The translations under genes were made by a program, and so were the position numbers. Below the pieces are notes generated by a model. That model was not told where the DNA came from, ran no database searches, and saw nothing but the letters and a program-made list of their open reading frames with translations. Positions 1-42,199 of a stretch of DNA of 64,000 nucleotides are shown here, one piece after another. This DNA is from Actinomadura violacea (GTDB lineage Bacteria; Actinomycetota; Actinomycetes; Streptosporangiales; Streptosporangiaceae). The stretch spans positions 186,001-250,000 of the forward strand of contig NZ_JAGEPF010000009.1 of NCBI RefSeq assembly GCF_017573465.1, in the 5' to 3' direction. Numbering within the stretch: position 1 is the first letter of the stretch; each line of letters starts with the position of its first letter.

Positions 1-357
1 CATGCCGGCGAGGGCGCCCGCGAGCGCGTGCCCCAGCCGGACGACCTCGTCCTGCGGCGGGTAGACGGTGACGGCCTTGCCGACGGAGGCCGCGTCGAGG
101 TCGCCGGAGTTGAGCTCGCGCAGCATCTCGGCGGAGCGCGCCGCCTTGAAGTCGCACGGGGTGGCCAGCAGCAGCGGCAGGATGCGTTCGAGCGTCTCCG
201 CGAACGTGCCGGGCCGCGCGGAGACATGCAGTTTCCAACCCTGCCGGGGCATGTCGAAGCCGGGATCGCGCACGCTGATCCAGGTGTCGTCCGACCGGAT
301 TTCCCGGCCGCGCTCACGGACGATCGCAGAAATGAGCCCGAATATCGATGACTCCAT
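1..357 (-). CDS. N-terminal part of a class III/IV lanthipeptide synthetase (LanKC/LanL-like), runs off the left edge
   Basis: Only the first 119 codons are in the window, read on the minus strand from ATG at 357, with a GAAGGG ribosome site about 5 bases upstream. The fragment matches the N-terminal lyase region of LanKC/LanL synthetases. It has a W-x-x-V segment near residue 28, the hallmark QGWKLHVSA near residues 40-48, an FKAARS segment near 70, ELNSG near 82, and a VGKAVTVYP segment (families usually have GKF-TVYP). In this family the enzyme phosphorylates and eliminates Ser/Thr in a precursor peptide and then adds Cys thiols to form (methyl)lanthionine. The kinase and cyclase domains that would tell class III from IV lie outside the window. 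It sits 100 bases downstream of the Cys-rich precursor ORF on the same strand, the expected lanA-lanK order. Family assignment is strong. Product and class are inference. Confidence 0.85.
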   Translation of the reverse strand, partial: MESSIFGLISAIVRERGREIRSDDTWISVRDPGFDMPRQGWKLHVSARPGTFAETLERILPLLLATPCDFKAARSAEMLRELNSGDLDAASVGKAVTVYPPQDEVVRLGHALAGALAGM

Positions 358-403
358 TGTCGCCCTTCGGTCGCGGCCCGTATCCGGCAATGGCGAACGC
401 GCA

Positions 404-438
404 GGAAGAGGCCACCGGTGGGAGCCAATGGCCTTTCC
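404..438 (-). terminator. hairpin between lanthipeptide precursor and synthetase
   Basis: An inverted repeat GGAAGAGGCCA / TGGCCTTTCC (one-base bulge) lies in the 100-base gap between the precursor stop and the synthetase start. Its loop contains the palindrome CCACCGGTGG. There is no T-tract. In lantibiotic operons, hairpins at this place often cause partial termination or stabilise the precursor mRNA, so that peptide is made in excess of enzyme. That role here is inference from position. Confidence 0.5.
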
Positions 439-457
439 CGCGTGCGTTCGGAGAGGG

Positions 458-628
458 TCAGACGATGGACGGGCAGCACGGGTAGCTGCTGCACACCGTG
501 CGCTTGCAGGTGTTCACGCAGGCCTGCGGGCCGTGCAGCAGTTCCAGCAGTTCCATCTCGAAGTCCACGTCGAGGTCTTCCGGGTCGATGACGCCGGCGT
601 CGCGGGGCTCCAGGGCCAGCACGGACAT
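458..628 (-). CDS. candidate lanthipeptide precursor peptide, 56 aa, Cys-rich core
   Basis: This short minus-strand ORF starts at ATG 628 with a GGAAGGAG ribosome site 5-6 bases upstream and ends at TGA 458. Residues 1-31 form an acidic, amphipathic leader with many Asp/Glu and a MELLELL helix at 25-31, like class III/IV leaders. From about residue 33 the composition changes sharply: Cys at 37, 41, 46, 51 and 52, Thr at 40 and 44, Ser at 47, 48 and 54, and a C-terminal IV. Ser/Thr plus Cys in a short C-terminal core next to a LanKC/LanL gene is what a ring-forming precursor should look like. There is no double-Gly or other obvious leader-cleavage site. The core resembles no lanthipeptide I know (SapB, labyrinthopeptin and venezuelin types differ). 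Function is inferred from composition and neighbours. Confidence 0.75.
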   Translation of the reverse strand: MSVLALEPRDAGVIDPEDLDVDFEMELLELLHGPQACVNTCKRTVCSSYPCCPSIV

Positions 629-643
629 GGGGGCTCCTTCCTT

Positions 644-662
644 GGCCGCCGTTCGGGCGGCC
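644..662 (-). promoter_or_regulatory. 5'-leader hairpin just upstream of the precursor ribosome site
   Basis: GGCCGCC / GGCGGCC form a 7-bp perfect stem with a 5-base loop. On the minus strand the stem ends only a few bases before the GGAAGGAG ribosome site of the precursor ORF. A second, larger inverted repeat (GGAGAGCC / GGGCTCTCC, arms at 680-687 and 704-712) lies further upstream. Both would be in the transcribed leader if the promoter at 728-757 is used. They could stabilise the message or gate translation; this is inference. Confidence 0.4.
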
Positions 663-727
663 GCTCGGGATCTGAGCCCGGAGAGCCGGCATCGGGTGCC
701 GCCGGGCTCTCCAGAGCAAACGGACGC

Positions 728-757
728 ATTATGAGCAGATGATCAGCGGGCTGTCCA
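728..757 (-). promoter_or_regulatory. putative promoter of the lanthipeptide precursor/synthetase operon
   Basis: On the minus strand, TGGACA (-35, at 757-752) and CATAAT (-10, at 733-728) are separated by 18 bases, close to the housekeeping sigma consensus. Transcription would start near 721, giving a leader of about 90 bases that includes two hairpins before the precursor ATG at 628. Confidence 0.45.
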
Positions 758-810
758 GACACTCATTCGTCACCGGTACGGCAGCGCGAACGCGGCGCTG
801 GAACGAGGCA

Positions 811-839
811 TTTACAGCCGCCAATCGATGATCTAGGTT
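811..839 (+). promoter_or_regulatory. putative promoter giving a leaderless ABC-transporter transcript
   Basis: TTTACA (811-816), a 17-base spacer and TAGGTT (834-839) fit the actinobacterial -35/-10 pattern (TAGNNT). The -10 ends 6 bases before the GTG at 846, so the message would begin at or next to the start codon. No ribosome site is visible there, which agrees with leaderless translation. The promoter is divergent from that of the precursor operon. Confidence 0.55.
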
Positions 840-845
840 GGCTCT

Positions 846-2744
846 GTGTTCCGACGCTCCCCGGCCCTCGCCGACGACAGGTCGGGGCTCGAAATCACCT
901 ATTGGGAAAGCCGCGACGAGGAACTGCTGAAAGCCGGCCTTCCGGCGATGCTGCGGCGGTTTCCGATGCTGGTCACGGCGGCGGTCCGGCTGGCCTGGCG
1001 GGCGAGCCGGGCGGACACGGCGGTCGCGCTCGGCGGCAACCTCGCGGCCGGGGTCTTCACCGCGTTCGGGCTGCTGGCCACCTCCGACGTGCTGGCGTCG
1101 CTGTTCGCGGCCGGGCCGACGCCCGGCCGGGTCCGCGCCGCGCTGCCCGCGCTGGCGCTGGTGGGCGCGGCGGCGGCGCTGCGCGGCGCGCTGCTGGCCG
1201 CCGCCGGCTGGGCGCAGGCCCGGCTGAAGCCGCAGGTCGAGCGGCAGGCGGAGACGCGGCTGTTCGAGCTGACCACCCGGGTGGAGCTGACCGCGTTCGA
1301 CGACCACGAGTTCCACAACGCGATGCGGCGGGCCCGCGACAACGGCGTGCCCGACACCGCCACCGTCGTCGAGATGACGGTCAGCGCGCTGACCGGCGCG
1401 GTCGGGCTGGCGGCGCCCGCCGTCGCGCTCGGCCTGCTGCACCCGGCGCTGATGCCGCTGCTGCTGGTCACGGCCGTGCCCGCGGGCTGGGCCGCGCTGC
1501 GCACCGCGCGGCTGCGGTACGCGGCGTTCTACCGGCTGTCGGCGGCGCGGCGGCGCAAGTTCATGCTGTCGGACCTGATGGCCGAGCGGCAGCCCGCCGC
1601 CGAGGTCCGCGCGTTCACCCTGCGCGGGTTCCTGCTCGGCGAGTACGACCGGGTCGCGGAGCTCGAGCAGCGCGTCCAGCTGGACGTCGCGCGCCGGCAG
1701 ACCGGCGCCAAGGCGGCCGGCGACCTGCTCACCGGCGCCGCGACCGTGGCCGTCTACGCCGCGCTCGGCGGGCTGCTCGCCGGCGGCGTGATCCCGCTGT
1801 CGGTCGCGGGCGCGGCCGTGCTGGCGATCAGGGCCGGGCAGTCGTCGCTGGCGGCGTGCGTGCTGAGCCTGAACAAGCTGTACGAGGCGGGCCTGTACTT
1901 CGGCGACTACCTGAACTTCCGCGCGCTCGCCGCGGAACGGCTCCCGCCGCCGGACGGCGCCGCCCCGCCCGCCGGGGACTTCGGCCGCGTCACCGCCGAA
2001 GGGGTGACGTTCCGGTACCCGGGCGCCGCCGCGCCGGCGCTCACCGACGTCAGCGTCACGGTGCGGCGCGGCGAGGTGATCGCCCTGGTCGGCGAGAACG
2101 GCTCGGGCAAGACCACCCTGGCCAAGCTGCTCGCCGGGCTGTACCGGCCCGACTCCGGGACGATCCGCTGGGACGACGCCGACCTCGCCGGCCTGGACGG
2201 CGACGCGCTCCGCCGCCGCGTCGCGGTGATCGCCCAGGACCACACGCGCTGGCCGCTCACCGTCCGGGAGAACATCGTGATGGGCCGCCCCCTCGACGAG
2301 GACCGGCTCGCCGGCGCCGCCGCCGCGGCGGGCGCGGACCGGGTGGTCGACGAGCTGCCGGGCGGGTACGACGCGCTGCTGGACCGGCGCTTCCGCGGCG
2401 GCCACGACCTGTCGGGAGGGCAGTGGCAGCGGGTCGCCGCCGCGCGCGGCTTCTACCGGGACGCCGCGCTGGTCATCTTCGACGAGCCGACCTCCGCGCT
2501 CGACGCCCGCGCCGAGCACGCCCTGTTCGAGCGGATCCGGCGGCACGCGGACGGCCGCACGGTGGTGCTGATCACCCACCGGCTGGCCAGCGTCCGCTTC
2601 GCCGACCGCATCTACGTGCTGGACCACGGCCGCGTCGCCGAGAGCGGCGCGCACGCCGACCTGCTCGCCGCGGACGGGCTGTACGCCGAGCTGTACCGGC
2701 TGCAGGCGTCGGCGTTCCAGCCGGACCCGCAGGAGGTCGCGTGA
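846..2744 (+). CDS. ABC transporter, fused permease/ATPase (lanthipeptide exporter candidate)
   Basis: This 632-residue half-transporter has an N-terminal six-helix-type membrane domain (about residues 40-340) followed by an ATPase domain. Walker A is GENGSGKTT near 416, the signature LSGGQ near 521, Walker B VIFDEPTSALD near 543 and the switch His is in ITHR near 575. There is no N-terminal C39 peptidase domain, so leader removal would need another protease. It is divergent from the Cys-rich precursor and is followed by a coupled MauE-thioredoxin gene, so export of the modified peptide is the likely role. The GTG start is chosen because a good -10 box ends 6 bases upstream. It could instead export another amphipathic molecule. 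Confidence 0.85.
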   Translation: MFRRSPALADDRSGLEITYWESRDEELLKAGLPAMLRRFPMLVTAAVRLAWRASRADTAVALGGNLAAGVFTAFGLLATSDVLASLFAAGPTPGRVRAALPALALVGAAAALRGALLAAAGWAQARLKPQVERQAETRLFELTTRVELTAFDDHEFHNAMRRARDNGVPDTATVVEMTVSALTGAVGLAAPAVALGLLHPALMPLLLVTAVPAGWAALRTARLRYAAFYRLSAARRRKFMLSDLMAERQPAAEVRAFTLRGFLLGEYDRVAELEQRVQLDVARRQTGAKAAGDLLTGAATVAVYAALGGLLAGGVIPLSVAGAAVLAIRAGQSSLAACVLSLNKLYEAGLYFGDYLNFRALAAERLPPPDGAAPPAGDFGRVTAEGVTFRYPGAAAPALTDVSVTVRRGEVIALVGENGSGKTTLAKLLAGLYRPDSGTIRWDDADLAGLDGDALRRRVAVIAQDHTRWPLTVRENIVMGRPLDEDRLAGAAAAAGADRVVDELPGGYDALLDRRFRGGHDLSGGQWQRVAAARGFYRDAALVIFDEPTSALDARAEHALFERIRRHADGRTVVLITHRLASVRFADRIYVLDHGRVAESGAHADLLAADGLYAELYRLQASAFQPDPQEVA

Positions 2745-3631
2745 CCGTCCTGGCGTCGGCGTGGCCGGCGCTGATCGCGGTGCTGCTCGTCGCGGCCGGC
2801 GGCAAGGTCCGCGACGTGCGCGGGTTCGCGGCGGCGATCGGCGCCTACCGGGTGCTGCCCGCCCGGCTGACCGGCGCCGCGGCGGTGGCGGTGCTGTCCG
2901 CGGAGGCGGCGGCGGCCGTGCTGCTGGCCGTGCCCGCCACCCGGCGGTGGGGGGCGCTGGCCGCGGCGGCGCTGTTCGCGGCGTTCCTCGGCGCGATGGC
3001 CTCGGTGCTGCGGCGCGGCATGGTGATCGACTGCGGCTGCTTCGGGTCGGCGCGCCGTCCCGCGCCGGTCGGCGCCGCGTCGATGACGCGGACGGCGCTG
3101 CTCCTGCTGCTGGCCGCCATGGCGGCGGTCGCCGGGCCCGCGGCGTACTCGCCGGTGCGGGCGGTGCTCGCGGTGGTCCTCCTCGGCGCGGTCGCGGCGG
3201 TGCCCCGGCCGCGTCCCGGGGTCGCCGAGCCGGAGGCGCCGCCGCCGGCGGGCCCGCGGCCCGGGACGCAGTTCGCGCTGAACTCCGCGATCGGGGCCCC
3301 GACGGTGTTCGCGCTGGTCTCGCCGGCGTGCGGCCTCTGCCGGACCATGCTGCCGGTGTTCGCCGAGGCCGCGTCCGGACGGCGGGTGGTGCTGGTGAGC
3401 GCGGCGGGCGAGGACGCCGTCCGGCGGCACCTGGACGAGCATGGCGCCGCCGGCCTGCCGCTGGTGACCGACCCCGACGTGTACGACGCCAACGGCATCC
3501 CGTGGCCGCCGTACGTCGTCGTCACCGACGCCGCCGGGACCGTGCTGGCGGCGGGCGGCGCGGACACGGCCCCGCGGTTCCGCGCGCTCCTGCAGCGGGC
3601 GGAGTCGGCCGGAGCAAATCCCGCCCGCTGA
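2741..3631 (+). CDS. MauE-type membrane protein fused to a thioredoxin-like domain
   Basis: The GTG start overlaps the transporter stop (GTGA) and is preceded by AGGAGG four bases upstream, so it is translationally coupled. Residues 1-155 form a MauE/DoxX-like four-helix membrane domain with the typical CGCFG motif at 98-102. After a Pro-rich linker, residues 175-290 form a thioredoxin fold with the active-site CGLC at 197-200 and a conserved-looking WPPY segment near 254. MauE/MauD proteins help form disulfides in methylamine dehydrogenase, and such fusions act at the membrane in thiol redox chemistry. Next to a precursor with five Cys it may form or reduce disulfides in the exported peptide, or reduce leaked oxidised Cys. 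Domain calls are firm; substrate is inference. Confidence 0.85.
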   Translation: MTVLASAWPALIAVLLVAAGGKVRDVRGFAAAIGAYRVLPARLTGAAAVAVLSAEAAAAVLLAVPATRRWGALAAAALFAAFLGAMASVLRRGMVIDCGCFGSARRPAPVGAASMTRTALLLLLAAMAAVAGPAAYSPVRAVLAVVLLGAVAAVPRPRPGVAEPEAPPPAGPRPGTQFALNSAIGAPTVFALVSPACGLCRTMLPVFAEAASGRRVVLVSAAGEDAVRRHLDEHGAAGLPLVTDPDVYDANGIPWPPYVVVTDAAGTVLAAGGADTAPRFRALLQRAESAGANPAR

Positions 3632-3648: not shown

Positions 3649-4986
3649 TCAGCGGATGCGCATGCGCGCCACCACGCCGGAGTCGTACGTGCCGTCGACG
3701 AACTCGCGGTGTTCGAGCAGCTCCGCCAGGAACGGCAGGTTCGTCGCGATGCCCTCGATGCGGAACGCGCCCAGCGCGGCGCGCGCGCGGGCCAGCGCGT
3801 GCGCGCGGTCGTCGCCGTGCACGCAGAGCTTGGCGAGCAGCGAGTCGTAGTACGGCGTGACGGTGTTGCCCTCGTAGTAGCCGGCGTCGATGCGGATGCC
3901 GTCGCCGACCGGCTCCTCCCACACCTTGATCTCGCCGGCCCCCGGCCGGAAGCCCTGCGGGTCCTCGGCGTGCACGCGGAACTCGATCGCGTGGCCGCGC
4001 GGCGCGGCGGCGGGCGGCGCGACCCGCTCCCCGGCCGCGATCCGGAACTGCTGCTCGACGAGGTCGACGCCGGTGACCATCTCGGTGACGGGATGCTCGA
4101 TCTGCAGCCGGGCCGTCAGCTCCAGGAAGAAGAACTCCTGCGCGACCGGGTCGACCAGGAACTCGACCGTCCCCGCGCCCCGGTACCCGACGGCCTCCCC
4201 CGCGCGGACCGCCGCGGCGAGCATCCGCTCCCGCAGCGCCGCGCCGACGCCCGGCGACGGCGTCTCCTCGGCGACCTTCTGGTACCGCCGCTGGACGGAG
4301 CACTCCCGCTCCCCCAGCGCCACGACGGTGCCGTCCACCAGGCCGAGGATCTGCACCTCGACGTGCCGGACGCCCTCCACGTACCGCTCCAGCAGCACGT
4401 CGCCGTGCCCGAACAGCCGCGTCGCGGCCGTGTGGGCCGCCTCGAACGCGGTGCGCAGCGTCTCCGCGTCGTAGGCCGAGCCCAGCCCGGCTCCGCCCCC
4501 GCCCGCGGCGGGCTTCACCATCACCGGGTAGCCGATCCGCTCGGCCTCCTCCAGCGCGGTCGCCGCGTCCGGGACGGGCTCCCACGCGCCCGGCGACACC
4601 GGGACGCCCGCCTCCTTCATCAGGTTCCGGGCGTTGATCTTGTCGCCCATCCGGGCGACGACCAGCGGCGGCGGGCCGACCCAGACCAGGTCCCGCGCGG
4701 CGACGGCCCGCGCGAACGGGGCGCTCTCGGCGAGGAACCCGTAGCCGGGGTGGACGGCCTGCGCGTTCGTGCGCTGCGCGGCCTCCAGCACCGCCGCCGC
4801 GTTGAGGTAGCTGCGCGCCGGGTCGGCCGGGCCGATCAGCACCGCCTCGTCCGCCTCGGCGACGTAGGGCAGGCCGGCGTCGGCCTCGGAGTACACCGCG
4901 ATCGCCTTCAGGCCCATGGCCTGCGCGGTGCGCACGACCCGGCCGGCGATCTCACCCCGGTTCGCCACCAGCACGGACTCGAACAC
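3649..4986 (-). CDS. biotin carboxylase-like ATP-grasp protein (acyl-CoA carboxylase alpha subunit, biotin-carboxylase part only)
   Basis: The 445-residue protein has the full biotin carboxylase layout: VANRGEIA at the N-terminus, GYGFLAE near 81, a Gly-rich ATP loop at 158-169, the RECSVQRRYQK segment near 227-237 and RLQIEHPVTEM at 293-303. It should carboxylate biotin on a carrier protein using ATP and bicarbonate. There is no biotin-carrier domain, and no carrier or carboxyltransferase gene nearby, so its partners are elsewhere. Two sites differ from the classic enzyme: the usual EMNTR reads ELTAR (the Mg-binding Asn is Thr291), and the Gly-rich loop has GAG where GRG is usual. Some close homologues carry such changes, so lower or altered activity is only a possibility. 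Confidence 0.85.
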   Translation of the reverse strand: MFESVLVANRGEIAGRVVRTAQAMGLKAIAVYSEADAGLPYVAEADEAVLIGPADPARSYLNAAAVLEAAQRTNAQAVHPGYGFLAESAPFARAVAARDLVWVGPPPLVVARMGDKINARNLMKEAGVPVSPGAWEPVPDAATALEEAERIGYPVMVKPAAGGGGAGLGSAYDAETLRTAFEAAHTAATRLFGHGDVLLERYVEGVRHVEVQILGLVDGTVVALGERECSVQRRYQKVAEETPSPGVGAALRERMLAAAVRAGEAVGYRGAGTVEFLVDPVAQEFFFLELTARLQIEHPVTEMVTGVDLVEQQFRIAAGERVAPPAAAPRGHAIEFRVHAEDPQGFRPGAGEIKVWEEPVGDGIRIDAGYYEGNTVTPYYDSLLAKLCVHGDDRAHALARARAALGAFRIEGIATNLPFLAELLEHREFVDGTYDSGVVARMRIR

Positions 4987-5134
4987 CTGCGGACTCCCTC
5001 GGCGAGCTGCGGTCCGCCGGCTGCCCCGGCGGTCCTGACCAGGCCGACACTAGTGCCCGTACCGCCCCCGGTCCGGCGGTACGGCCGACAAATCCCGGCC
5101 GCGGGCCCGGCCGGGGGCGCGGCCGGGGGCGTGG

Positions 5135-6493
5135 TCAGGGGCGGGGGCGGCGGTCGACGACGCGGCTGAGCGCCTCCACGACCGTCGGGTCGTACTCGGC
5201 GGCGGAGTCCAGCCGCAGCCGCTCCAGCACGGCGGCGCCGCGGTCCCGGTCGGCGGAGTCGCCGACCAGGTCGTCGTAGGCGTTGGCGACCTTGATGATG
5301 CGGCCGGCCAGCGGCGGCGCCGGGACCGGCTGCCCGGCCTCCCCGGGCCCGGCGAGCGTCTCCGGGCCCGTCCGGTACGGGTGCGACGACAGCTGGACGA
5401 TGTGCGCGACCCGGTCCAGCACGCCGGTCTGCTTGATGACCTCGGCGCCGAGCTCGGCGATGCGGCGCTGCTCGGCGGGCGAGGCGAGCACCGTCGCGCC
5501 GCCGGGGATCGGGTCGCCGAGCGACAGCTGCCCGATGTCGTGCATCAGCGCCGCGTACTCCAGCTCCAGCAGCTCCTCCTCGGACATGCCGAGCTCGCGG
5601 CCCATCGCCACCGACAGCCGCGACACCCGCCGCGAGTGCCCGGTCTCGACGTACCCGCCGACCTCGGTGACCCGCGACAGCGCCCGGACGGTCTGCAGGT
5701 ACGTCGCGCGGATCCCCGCGTACCGGCGGAACGCGAACTGGGTGACCAGGATCGGCACCGTGAAGATCAGCAGCGCGGCCTCGCCCATCGCCGTGGTCGC
5801 GACCGCGATCAGCATCGCGGTGGCGCTGGTCGCCGCGCACAGCGCCATCTTCGCGTCGATCTCGTCGCGCAGCGCGATCCCGAACCGGGCCCGCACCGCC
5901 TCCGCCCGGATCATCGCGGCGATCAGCACGTCGGTGAAGCAGGACAGCACGACGACCAGGCCCATCACCGCCAGCAGCAGCTGCCAGGGCAGCCCGAGCG
6001 ACAGCATCGGCCGGAAGCACAGCGCCACGACCGCGACGGTGAACAGCCGGCGCGCCATCGCGTCCGGGCGCGGCGACCGGCCGACCATGATGTGCGGCAG
6101 CGAGCCGACCAGCATCCCGACCGACGTCACCGCGACGACCTGCAGCGGCGAGTGCTCGGCGGGGACGACGCCGAGCGGCGCGTCCGGCGGGGCGCCCTCG
6201 GGGCCGATGCCGACCAGCAGCGCGTAGCCCATCGCGCCGGCGCTGGCGATCGGCGCGACCTCGCGGTTGCCCGGCATGACCATCCGGAACAGCTCGCCGA
6301 GCGCGATCAGCACGCCGAAGATGATCGCGACGTTGGGCTGCCGGAGCCCGGCCGCGGCGACCTCGGCGATCGCGACGACGACGAACAGCCCGGCGGTCGC
6401 GATCAGCAGCAGCTGGCCGGAGTCGATGGTCTGCCATGCGGCCCGCTCGCGGCGGGCCCGGATCTGGGTGCTGCTCATGGGGGGTCCGGTCAC
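5135..6493 (-). CDS. membrane HD-domain protein with a degenerate HD-GYP site
   Basis: About nine hydrophobic segments fill residues 25-255, followed by an HD-GYP-like domain (about 265-440). The metal site reads HDIGQ at 318-322 instead of HDxGK, and the HHExxxGxGYP signature is reduced to a short HPYRTG stretch, so c-di-GMP hydrolysis is doubtful. It may sense or bind a signal instead. The GTG start at 6493 overlaps the stop of the upstream HD-GYP gene (GTGA), indicating coupling. An internal ATG at 6478 is an alternative start, but its ribosome site is poorer. The two proteins are probably paralogues, with this one the diverged partner. Confidence 0.75.
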   Translation of the reverse strand: MTGPPMSSTQIRARRERAAWQTIDSGQLLLIATAGLFVVVAIAEVAAAGLRQPNVAIIFGVLIALGELFRMVMPGNREVAPIASAGAMGYALLVGIGPEGAPPDAPLGVVPAEHSPLQVVAVTSVGMLVGSLPHIMVGRSPRPDAMARRLFTVAVVALCFRPMLSLGLPWQLLLAVMGLVVVLSCFTDVLIAAMIRAEAVRARFGIALRDEIDAKMALCAATSATAMLIAVATTAMGEAALLIFTVPILVTQFAFRRYAGIRATYLQTVRALSRVTEVGGYVETGHSRRVSRLSVAMGRELGMSEEELLELEYAALMHDIGQLSLGDPIPGGATVLASPAEQRRIAELGAEVIKQTGVLDRVAHIVQLSSHPYRTGPETLAGPGEAGQPVPAPPLAGRIIKVANAYDDLVGDSADRDRGAAVLERLRLDSAAEYDPTVVEALSRVVDRRPRP

Positions 6494-7836
6494 CGCCGTG
6501 CTTCGTCTCCGGCGACCCGCAGCGGGGCGCTCGGGTCGTCATGGTCCTGCTGGGTGGTCTCGACGACGTCGTCGTCCGGCAGCACGACGGGCCGCGGCGG
6601 CTCCCAGCCGTCCCGGTCCAGCGCGCGCAGGAACGCCTCCACGATCACCGGGTCGAAGTGGTCGCCCATGCCGCGGCGCAGCTCCGCCACGGCCTCCGCC
6701 ACGGTGCGGGCCGCCCGGTAGGAGCGGGTGGAGGTCATCGAGTCGAACGCGTCCGCGACGGAGATGACCCGGGCGAACTCGGGGATCTCGTCGCCGGCCA
6801 GGCCCATCGGGTAGCCGCGGCCGTTCACCTTCTCGTGGTGGTGCATGATCCCGGCGAGCGCCTCGTCCAGGAACCCGATCTCCCGGACGATCTCCAGCCC
6901 GCGCATCGGGTGCAGCTGGATCGCGGCGAACTCCTCCTCGGTGAGCGAGCCGGACTTCTGCAGCACCTTCGTCGGGACGCCGAGCTTGCCGACGTCGTGC
7001 AGCATCCCCGCGTACCGGATCGCCTCGACCCGGTCGGCGCGCATGCCGATCTCCTGCGCGATCATCACCGAGCCGCGGGAGACCCGCTCGGAGTGGCCGC
7101 GGGTGTAGTAGTCCTTGGTCTCGACGGCCTGGCAGAGCGCGGCGAGGGTGGCGGCGTGCGCCTGCTGCTGCGCGTACGCCTGGTCCATCGCCCAGCGGGC
7201 GATGAACAGCGGCAGCAGCACCAGCACGGCGGCGAAGGCGCCGATCCGCGGCCAGAGCCCGGCGATCAGCAGCCCGACCATGCCGTAGCCGAGGCAGCCG
7301 ACGGCGAGCTGGCCGCTCTCGTGCAGCAGCTCGCGGGGCGCGGCCTGCCGGGACAGCAGCAGCACCCCGGCCATCAGCAGCAGGTTGACCAGGACGAAGG
7401 TGACCAGGGCGCCGAGGAACGGGCCGATGACGTTCTCCACCCAGCGGGACTGCTCGGGGTGGAAGCGGTCACCGCCGAGCAGGTCGAAGACCGTGCCGGC
7501 GCAGAAGCCGCTGAGCGCGAACTGCGCGCCGTTGAAGGCGCGCTTCTCGGGCGCGAAGAACCGCTGGCCGGTGACCAGCGCGCTGAGCCCGAGCAGCGCC
7601 GCGCCGGCCGGGCCGAGCAGCACGACCCCCGCCAGGCTGGCGGCGAAGCTGAGCGAGACCCGGGCCCGCTCGACGTTCAGCCGGGCGGGCGCCGAGTCGC
7701 AGATCAGGAACAGCAGGGCCAGCACGGCCAGTTTCGTCCAGTCCACCCCCGTGAAGGACGACGTGGCGATCAGCGCGGCCGCTAGCGCGACCACCCCGCA
7801 CACGTACGCCCAGGCAGCGAGAGGTAGTCCACGCAT
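6490..7836 (-). CDS. membrane HD-GYP phosphodiesterase (c-di-GMP hydrolase candidate)
   Basis: Residues 1-215 hold about eight membrane helices (MASE-like sensor region). The C-terminal half carries an intact HD-GYP domain: GHSERVSR near 247, HDVGKLGVP at 280-288 and HHHEKVNGRGYP at 332-343. This family hydrolyses cyclic di-GMP (or related dinucleotides) at a two- or three-metal centre on the cytoplasmic side. The C-terminal 45 residues are acidic and likely disordered. ATG at 7836 has an AGGGG ribosome site 6 bases upstream. The gene is coupled to the degenerate HD protein downstream and lies 64 bases downstream of a tiny Cys-containing ORF, which may be in the same transcript. Confidence 0.88.
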   Translation of the reverse strand: MRGLPLAAWAYVCGVVALAAALIATSSFTGVDWTKLAVLALLFLICDSAPARLNVERARVSLSFAASLAGVVLLGPAGAALLGLSALVTGQRFFAPEKRAFNGAQFALSGFCAGTVFDLLGGDRFHPEQSRWVENVIGPFLGALVTFVLVNLLLMAGVLLLSRQAAPRELLHESGQLAVGCLGYGMVGLLIAGLWPRIGAFAAVLVLLPLFIARWAMDQAYAQQQAHAATLAALCQAVETKDYYTRGHSERVSRGSVMIAQEIGMRADRVEAIRYAGMLHDVGKLGVPTKVLQKSGSLTEEEFAAIQLHPMRGLEIVREIGFLDEALAGIMHHHEKVNGRGYPMGLAGDEIPEFARVISVADAFDSMTSTRSYRAARTVAEAVAELRRGMGDHFDPVIVEAFLRALDRDGWEPPRPVVLPDDDVVETTQQDHDDPSAPLRVAGDEARR

Positions 7837-8385: not shown

Positions 8386-9303
8386 TCAGGCGGTGCGCCC
8401 GCGCGCCCACGCGGCCGTCTCGGCCAGCCCGTCGGCGAGGCCCACCCGCGGCTCCCAGCCGAGCGCCTCCCGCGTCGGCCCCGGATCCACCGCCATCGCC
8501 GGCAGGTCGCCCAGCCGCGGCGGCGCGAACTCCGGCTCGTCCGGCGCGCCCACCGCGGCCGCCACGAGCGCGTGCAGGTCCCGGTCGGTCGTCTGCAGGC
8601 CCGTGCCGACGTTGAACCGGCCGCCGCCCCCCGCCTCGCCCGTGGCGCGCGCGAACGCGTCCACGACGTCCAGGACGTACACGTAGTCGCGGGTCTGCTT
8701 GCCGTCCCCGAACACCCGGGTCGGACGGCCCGCCAGCAGCGCGTCGGTGAAGATCGAGATCACGCCGGCCTCGCCCTCCGGCGTCTGCCGCGGCCCGTAC
8801 ACGTTCGCCAGCGTCAGCGTCGTGAAGTCGAGGCCGTGCAGCGCCCGGTACATCCCGGCGTACACCTCGCCCGACACCTTGGACGCCGCGTACGGCGACG
8901 CGGGCCGCAGCGGCGCGTCCGGCGGGACCGGCAGCGCGTCCGGCACCCCGTACACCGCGCAACTGGAGGTGAAGACGACCTTGCGGCTGCCCGCCGCGCG
9001 CGCCGCCTCCAGCACGTTCGCGGTGCCCGTCACGTTCACCCGCGCGTCGTGCAGCGGGTCGGCCACGCTCGCACGCACGCTCACCTGCGCCGCCAGATGG
9101 CAGACGACCTCGGGGCGGCGCGCCGCCATCCGCTCGGCGAGCGCCGGATCGGCCACGTCCATCCGCCACAGCTCGATGGCCGGGTTCTGGTTGGCGCCCG
9201 ACGACAGGTCGTCCACGCCGACGACCTCATGGCCGTCGGCGAGCAGCCGGTCGACGAGATGGGACCCGATGAAGCCGGCCGCGCCGGTGACGAGAGCGAG
9301 CAC
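8386..9303 (-). CDS. NAD-dependent epimerase/dehydratase, UDP-glucose 4-epimerase-like
   Basis: A 305-residue extended short-chain dehydrogenase/reductase. The NAD-binding GAAGFIGSH motif is at 7-15, the active-site Ser/Thr lies in FTSSCAVYG near 110-118, and the catalytic YAASK is near 139-143. An NVYGPRQ segment near 167 and RDYVYVLDV near 205 are typical of the GalE/RmlB group of sugar-nucleotide enzymes. It probably interconverts UDP-glucose and UDP-galactose or a related sugar; exact substrate cannot be told from sequence. The start is GTG at 9303. It stands alone, with no cell-wall or glycan cluster beside it. Confidence 0.85.
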   Translation of the reverse strand: MLALVTGAAGFIGSHLVDRLLADGHEVVGVDDLSSGANQNPAIELWRMDVADPALAERMAARRPEVVCHLAAQVSVRASVADPLHDARVNVTGTANVLEAARAAGSRKVVFTSSCAVYGVPDALPVPPDAPLRPASPYAASKVSGEVYAGMYRALHGLDFTTLTLANVYGPRQTPEGEAGVISIFTDALLAGRPTRVFGDGKQTRDYVYVLDVVDAFARATGEAGGGGRFNVGTGLQTTDRDLHALVAAAVGAPDEPEFAPPRLGDLPAMAVDPGPTREALGWEPRVGLADGLAETAAWARGRTA

Positions 9304-42062: not shown

Positions 42063-42199
42063 GCACGCCTCCCGGCGGCCTGTGCGGTCACGAGCCATGA
42101 TTATGCGAGCAGAAGAACGCAGTTGTCCATCTGACTCGCGGCGCCCGGCCGCACCGGCGCCGCGGCCGGGTGGTGCCCCGGCCGCGGCGCCGCCGGCGG

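Follow-up and report, generated by a model that had tools for sequence, protein, structure and literature searches.

A class IV lanthipeptide cassette of Actinomadura violacea that encodes a MauE-thioredoxin fusion

Why should a lanthipeptide locus encode a thiol-disulfide protein of its own? This question is raised by the left end of a 64,000-nucleotide stretch of DNA from Actinomadura violacea (contig NZ_JAGEPF010000009.1; G000:C73:186001-250000 in the source assembly), which was analyzed as a whole and is hereafter called the window. Four genes are arranged there as a divergon, encoding a precursor peptide, a lanthionine synthetase (LanL), an ATP-binding cassette (ABC) exporter, and a protein in which a MauE domain is fused to a thioredoxin (coordinates in Table 1). 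Left-flanking DNA was added as locus L009. At least 19 distinct intact cassettes were found in Actinomadura, Nonomuraea, Saccharopolyspora, and one metagenome-assembled genome (MAG), and two further loci were broken; duplicates were taken once in this count, and locus L089 was counted as intact though a contig edge falls inside its LanL gene. The cassette is a real, complete, and conserved class IV variant, in which the class is known and the redox fusion and the fixed five-cysteine core are new. The mechanism proposed below is plausible. We judge it rather probable that the cassette makes a mixed thioether product and that the fusion sets the state of the cysteine (Cys) residues left over. 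A more specific reading, in which LanL forms about three thioethers, the exporter-linked fusion controls a conserved Cys pair, and the product is the first of class IV with a secondary modification, falls a little short of even likelihood in our judgement.

The synthetase and its precursor peptide

The original prediction had seen only the N-terminus of the synthetase and described it as a class III/IV protein of the LanKC/LanL type. After extension leftwards the complete LanL was found to be 842 amino acids long (L009:9829-12357, minus strand). The lyase, kinase, and cyclase domains that an enzyme of this kind should carry are all present, as the Pfam domains PF25816 (RamC_N, lyase), PF00069 (kinase), and PF05147 (LANC_like) each scored over their cut-offs. 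On the class IV equivalog model NF038150 (cut-off 650) the protein scored 743.9 bits, and the LanLs of three orthologous cassettes scored 719.6, 736.7, and 780.4 bits. The class IV half of the description stood, and the class III half was rejected, because model NF038151 gave 330.7 bits against a cut-off of 575 and the three cyclase Cys are present; according to passages of a 2023 review (PMC10676316), the cyclase zinc motif Cys-Cys-His/Cys is absent from class III synthetases. By model scores, domain content, and three zinc-motif Cys, the sequence is that of a class IV lanthipeptide synthetase. The closest solved structure by sequence, PDB 8car, which we take to be SgbL, was matched by LanL residues 12-840 with 630 bits, with the CQG and CCG cyclase motifs aligned. 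Residues C710, C756, and C757 (P0001 numbering) were invariant in 10 aligned LanLs and matched in 8car, and the kinase residues K244, D342, N347, and D360 were likewise invariant in 10 aligned LanLs; all seven presumably have catalytic roles. A second LanL/LanKC-like gene lies elsewhere in the source genome (G000:C11:331909-334494), and its product is 36% identical to the cassette LanL. At L085:8679-12678 (A. macrotermitis) the LanL open frame is 1226 amino acids long, compared with the usual 840.

The 56-residue precursor-like open reading frame (ORF) was confirmed in its coordinates and in its five Cys within the last 20 residues, which lie at positions 37, 41, 46, 51, and 52, and the frame was kept in 19 distinct intact loci. 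Its start lies 271 bp upstream of that of LanL, on the same strand, and is preceded by an AGGAG site; a site of this type precedes the precursor start in all 15 distinct loci whose upstream DNA was inspected. The leader would comprise residues 1 to about 33 and the core residues from about 34 to 56. The five Cys, T40, T44, and S54 are invariant in 19/19 precursors, position 47 is serine or threonine (Ser/Thr), and so is position 48 except in L049, which has Arg there. Invariant columns make up 16 of the 23 core positions and 14 of the 33 leader positions, and eight distinct cores occur. Nonsynonymous over synonymous diversity (pN/pS), pooled over pairs of 15 loci, a set that leaves out the four cassettes found late, came to 0.167 (0.065/0.392) in the core and 0.336 (0.163/0.486) in the leader. 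The core is under stronger constraint than the leader.

Residues 1-51 of the precursor matched the SflA-family model NF038148 with 17.1 bits (E 0.0039), below its cut-off of 25. Membership in the SflA family was rejected on this score, and the precursor may be a relative. A genome-wide search with the same model gave 15.7 bits at the same place, and 4 of 14 control genomes were also weakly matched below the cut-off, so that the link to SflA is weak. A DLLK/DLLQ motif, used to look for the sequence of SflA itself among the loci compared, gave two unrelated matches only. In L085, a locus without the fusion, the precursor match was 50% over residues 1-41; the core unit T-C-V-x-G-x-T-x-x-C-D-G is present twice in this A. 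macrotermitis peptide.

The fusion protein and the predicted product

A coupled MauE-thioredoxin fusion had also been predicted, and three results bear it out. The MauE model PF07291 matched fusion residues 10-129 with 89.7 bits (gathering score 27), the C-terminal part has a thioredoxin fold with a CxxC motif, and the GTG start codon of the fusion overlaps the stop codon of the ABC gene (GTGA). Because their genes overlap in the window, the fusion and the exporter are probably co-expressed. The MauD model TIGR02661 gave 33.8 bits on residues 181-287, and its cut-off of 188.6 was not reached. Based upon an alignment of 16 rows (14 intact and two broken loci), the only invariant Cys of the fusion are C98 and C100, which form a CGC motif in the MauE part, and C197 and C200 of the CxxC. 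The CGC motif is also found in MauE of one Paracoccus and one Methylobacterium mau cluster.

A structure model of the fusion (predicted local distance difference test, pLDDT, 87.2; predicted template modeling score, pTM, 0.59) contains five long hydrophobic helices and a thioredoxin fold. The best Foldseek matches were thiol peroxidase (4.5e-4), DsbE (5.2e-4), CcmG (5.5e-4), and ResA (1.1e-3), all on the thioredoxin part; DsbE, CcmG, and ResA are reductants. Tested for membership of the TlpA/ResA group, the modeled thioredoxin part has the fold and the CxxC of a thioredoxin-like oxidoreductase, with the exact subgroup not fixed. The MauE part alone (model pLDDT 90.2) gave no match better than E 1.8 against the PDB. 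Because there are five helices, loop 3, which holds the CGC motif, and the thioredoxin part would share one membrane face.

The supply of Ser/Thr limits what the core can become. In L049 the core (residues 34-56) has five Cys and four Ser/Thr, and leader residues 10-33 contain no Ser/Thr, so that at least one Cys there must stay outside a thioether. If every Cys of L049 is bridged, the number of thioethers would therefore be odd and at most four, which leaves three thioethers with one disulfide or one thioether with two. T40 adjoins C41, no core Ser/Thr precedes C37, and no Cys follows S54. Lanthipeptide rings usually run in the N-to-C direction, and reverse rings also occur. Given this direction, the adjacency of T40 to C41, and the lack of Ser/Thr before C37, the acceptors would be C46, C51, and C52 with the donors T40, T44, and S/T47, leaving C37 and C41. 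A stricter statement, that C37 is never in a thioether for want of a preceding core Ser/Thr, was dropped given the two-Cys relatives L053 and L056.

Gene content, conservation, class, and these Cys limits were computed; the ring pattern, the disulfide, the redox direction, and the membrane side are what we infer in the following scheme. Judging by enzyme family and conserved residues, core Ser/Thr would be phosphorylated and eliminated by LanL, and the LanL cyclase would add core Cys to them. The fully bridged product is predicted to carry three thioethers on C46, C51, and C52 and a single disulfide, for which C37-C41 is the simplest pairing. If the core begins at P34, its calculated monoisotopic mass is 2458.094 when unmodified, 2404.062 after three dehydrations, and 2402.046 once a disulfide is added to these. 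The peptide would be exported by the ABC half-transporter, and the leader would be cut by an enzyme encoded elsewhere. The fusion would be a membrane protein devoted to thiol-disulfide chemistry, its CGC and CxxC lying on one face, and would set the state of the left-over Cys, as a disulfide that is formed or reshuffled or as thiols kept reduced until export.

Distribution and genomic context

A LanL search of 59 genomes, the source genome included, gave 11 loci that were taken for study. Four of these (L032-L035) have the precursor at 87-98% identity, and L037-L042 gave no match to the fusion. From a contig scan of GTDB genomes the best 80 of at least 568 LanL loci were kept, and cassette counts are lower bounds. 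Among these 80, the fusion was matched at E 0.01 or better in 13: eleven intact loci with precursor (75-98%), exporter, and fusion, and two broken loci, L057 and L063, with remnants or copies of exporter and fusion and without the precursor. The 67 remaining loci gave no match at E 0.01, an absence that is weak in part because some of them sit on short contigs. Four more cassettes were reached by searching with the fusion and were then added to the intact count. The fusion is in one piece in 18/19 intact loci; in L050, the Actinomycetota MAG, separate overlapping MauE and thioredoxin genes directly follow the ABC gene, a possible ancestral or split form. In the broken loci L057 (= L036, A. rudentiformis; near 9001-9039) and L063 (= L171, N. 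montanisoli; near 9001), differing internal deletions have taken out the precursor, the intergenic region, and the N-terminal portions of LanL and the ABC protein, and have left the fusion in place. A stop codon separates two LanL halves in L036/L057. Real decay could explain these loci, as could faulty assembly of a divergent GC-rich stretch.

Neighboring genes were compared from the references L009, L047, L051, and L172, using open frames of at least 100 amino acids, with the precursor as the sole shorter frame. LanL and the ABC gene recurred in 18/18 other loci wherever their frames were listed, as did the precursor frame (reference L051, 18/18) and the fusion frame (references L047 and L172, 18/18). 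Each other open frame was shared with 0 to 2 of the 18 loci, and the conserved unit is therefore four genes in varied surroundings. No regulator or leader protease was found among the conserved frames of at least 100 amino acids. The source genome has five peptidase M1 stretches outside the cassette.

In a LanL tree of 86 rows (quick method) the 14 cassette rows formed one group (Shimodaira-Hasegawa-like approximate likelihood ratio test, SH-aLRT, 100), and one change was needed. The tree leaves out L033 and L055 (duplicates of L062 and L039), the broken L036, L057, and L063, the partial L089, the four late-found cassettes, and the lower-scoring LanL matches of the 59-genome search. A larger clade that includes the cassette holds 14 LanL rows without the fusion; a precursor was found for 11 of these and none was found for L042, L054, and L060. 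The reverse test covered 150 genomes from the order and matched the fusion at E 1e-8 in 35. Eight genomes reached at least 55% identity, and in each of these the match adjoins LanL and the ABC gene, in seven with the precursor as well; the eighth genome, G192, is that of the broken N. montanisoli locus, without precursor. The other 27 matches were at 28-44% identity, mostly to the MauE part, and no LanL match was found in the surroundings of two of them.

The exporter had been described as divergent and lacking a protease domain, which was confirmed: no C39 peptidase was among the Pfam hits of the ABC protein at E 0.1, and it is not of the peptidase-containing ABC transporter (PCAT) or LanT type. 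It matched NHLM_micro_ABC2 with 204.7 bits, below the cut-off of 709.4, and its N-terminal part is probably a membrane domain. Orthologs in the other 18 intact loci are 69-95% identical. A 60% identical paralog is encoded at L010:7947-9926 (G000:C36), where the surrounding 16 kb gave no match to LanL, and in L042 a similar exporter (57%) is next to a LanL without the fusion. The promoter-like sequence TGGACA-18-CATAAT is exact in 12/15 distinct aligned loci and is missing in L050, L051, and L052. It is not specific to the cassette, because the window contains one more exact copy, on the minus strand at 42100-42129, although none would be expected from shuffles. In the opposite direction, the TTTACA hexamer was retained in 13/15 aligned upstream regions; this site was not picked up by the consensus scan and is hence weaker. 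The ABC mRNA is possibly leaderless. Next to the cassette (window 3649-7836) come a biotin carboxylase gene and then two long proteins of the minus strand in which phosphohydrolase-like HD motifs were recognized by eye, and these neighbors recur in L032 and L033 among the loci listed.

Table 1 Features of the cassette, in window coordinates.
Feature	Position	Strand	Remarks
LanL gene start	1..357	-	ATG at 357; runs off left edge; remainder at L009:9829-12000
Precursor gene, 56 amino acids	458..628	-	orthologs in 19 intact loci; NF038148 17.1 bits
Promoter-like TGGACA-18-CATAAT	728..757	-	faces precursor and LanL; 10/12 consensus matches, 0.1 sites expected
Promoter-like TTTACA-17-TAGGTT	811..839	+	faces ABC gene, 6 bases before its GTG
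ABC half-transporter, 632 amino acids	846..2744	+	ATPase domain, PF00005 113.7 bits; NHLM_micro_ABC2 over 48-620
MauE-thioredoxin fusion, 296 amino acids	2741..3631	+	PF07291; five predicted membrane helices, CGC, thioredoxin with CxxC
MauE CGC codons (residues 98-100)	3032..3040	+	invariant in 16 fusion rows and two canonical MauE proteins
Thioredoxin CxxC codons (residues 197-200)	3329..3340	+	both Cys invariant in 16 fusion rows

Competing explanations and known systems

Several observations weigh against a mixed product whose spare Cys are handled by the fusion. The excess of Cys over Ser/Thr is that of L049, a single assembly, and the other 18 of the 19 core sequences have five Ser/Thr per five Cys. 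The relatives L053 and L056 have two Cys each, one at the C37 position; that Cys may itself lie in a ring, so that C37-C41 is weak as the disulfide. The idea that the fusion tracks a high Cys number or spare Cys was rejected as not clean, given that L085 (five Cys), L040 (one Ser/Thr to two Cys), and L041 (two to three) are without the fusion. Co-occurrence of fusion and LanL is one retained event rather than many, because the association has a single phylogenetic origin. The chemistry of the product is a prediction, and the nearest studied analogues, SviE/SviF, are dispensable for disulfides. All or nearly all Cys might instead lie in thioethers, including a ring from C37 onto a downstream residue, with the fusion a bystander of the exporter. 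The Ser/Thr numbers of the 18 cores and the two-Cys relatives fit this, as do passages in which two separate rings are given for SflA (PMC8358304). It is nevertheless rather improbable: L049 is short of Ser/Thr, S54 has no later Cys, T40 sits beside C41, and MauE and thioredoxin are retained in 19/19 intact loci.

The fusion could instead serve export or self-protection, as a partner of the ABC protein that keeps the peptide or the transporter in a transportable state, while any disulfide forms unaided. Its gene overlaps the ABC gene, and its thioredoxin part is, after thiol peroxidase, nearest to the reductants named above. In the lasso peptide pathways described in PMC9266682, SviE/SviF of sviceucin, and also MslE/MslF, were dispensable for disulfide formation; deletion of SviF left the disulfides intact and the peptide only in the mycelium, so that SviF is needed for release, and deletions of mslE or mslF only lowered the yield. 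This role is the strongest competitor, although still unlikely, since the Cys of CGC and CxxC are invariant in 16/16 rows, which argues that redox chemistry is retained, and related LanL loci without the fusion apparently cope. Less likely again is an action on the cytoplasmic side ahead of export, in which the fusion would keep core Cys reduced, or release them from low-molecular thiols, for cyclization by LanL. In 16/16 rows, loops 1 and 3 and the linker/thioredoxin start are jointly richer in Lys/Arg than the N-terminus and loops 2 and 4. By the positive-inside rule this would put CGC and thioredoxin in the cytoplasm, contrary to disulfide formation outside, and the separate thioredoxin of L050 has a membrane anchor with Arg on the thioredoxin side only. 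However, two canonical MauE/MauD pairs, judged by eye, have the same charge pattern, so that the charges do not settle the membrane side; canonical MauE/MauD are held to act outside the cytoplasm. The cytoplasm is moreover reducing already, and other LanL loci are without the fusion. Chance neighborhood of the ORF or of the linked genes can practically be dismissed: only the small size of the ORF favors it, against 19 intact loci in differing surroundings, the pN/pS of the core relative to the leader, and the promoter in 12/15 loci.

The mixed product, already put forward in the original prediction, is the preferred reading. The original prediction did not recognize the gene combination, and no description of it was found in the literature searched, which covered few subscription journals and no supplementary tables, so that mining surveys may list these precursors uncommented. 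That literature likewise returned no class IV lanthipeptide paired with a thioredoxin and none of the core sequence words; for lanthipeptides and DoxX, the contexts looked into were lasso and bufferin. Secondary modification is given as unreported for class IV lanthipeptides by Walker et al. 2020 (PMC7268733), and class IV as the least studied lanthipeptide group in the 2023 review (PMC10676316). A compact and repeatedly conserved gene set whose 23-residue core hardly varies lends itself readily to expression. It bears on the role of MauE/DoxX-thioredoxin pairs beside Cys-rich ribosomally synthesized and post-translationally modified peptides (RiPPs), for which the lasso knock-outs pointed to export and not to disulfides. 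If true, the mixed thioether-disulfide reading would provide a tractable model for such pairs in RiPP pathways.

Among known class IV systems, the SflA type shares a LanL of the same equivalog, an alignable precursor, and, between the cassette precursor and that of L053 (S. melanogenes, 90.2 bits), the leader motif RDAG and a core that begins with Q-A-C. It differs in that the cassette precursor stays below the SflA-family cut-off and has five Cys where L053 and L056 have two, and no match to the fusion was found in L053 or L056. The globisporin/venezuelin type is alike in LanL, which is homologous over its full length and in both cyclase motifs, as the alignment with 8car indicates. Labyrinthopeptins and roseocin alpha are lanthipeptides that join thioether or labionin rings with a disulfide; these are, however, class III and LanM-made two-component products, respectively, and a MauE-thioredoxin is not mentioned in the passages that describe them (PMC10676316). 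The mauE/mauD genes of methylamine dehydrogenase maturation share the MauE domain with CGC, a MauD-like thioredoxin, and the order E then D, but encode separate proteins for another client, and the fusion scores below the MauD cut-off. In decRiPPter families from Streptomyces, MauE homologs likewise stand beside Cys-rich putative RiPP precursors; these have at least eight Cys, no lanthionine synthetase is named in the passages concerned, and disulfide formation by MauE is a speculation there (PMC7794033). The source genome has MauE in one more RiPP-type context: at a lasso-like locus (L011:4822-8700, within G000:C3:155000-170000), successive genes encode an asparagine synthase, a transglutaminase-like protein, a separate MauE protein (61.8 bits), and an ABC ATPase. 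Among class I lasso peptides, the SviE/SviF and MslE/MslF pairs resemble the cassette in that a DoxX-type membrane protein and a CXXC thioredoxin are encoded downstream of transporter genes in the cluster of a disulfide-bearing RiPP (PMC9266682). There they are two proteins that accompany a lasso peptide, whereas the cassette joins them into one fusion (two genes only in L050) and accompanies a lanthipeptide.

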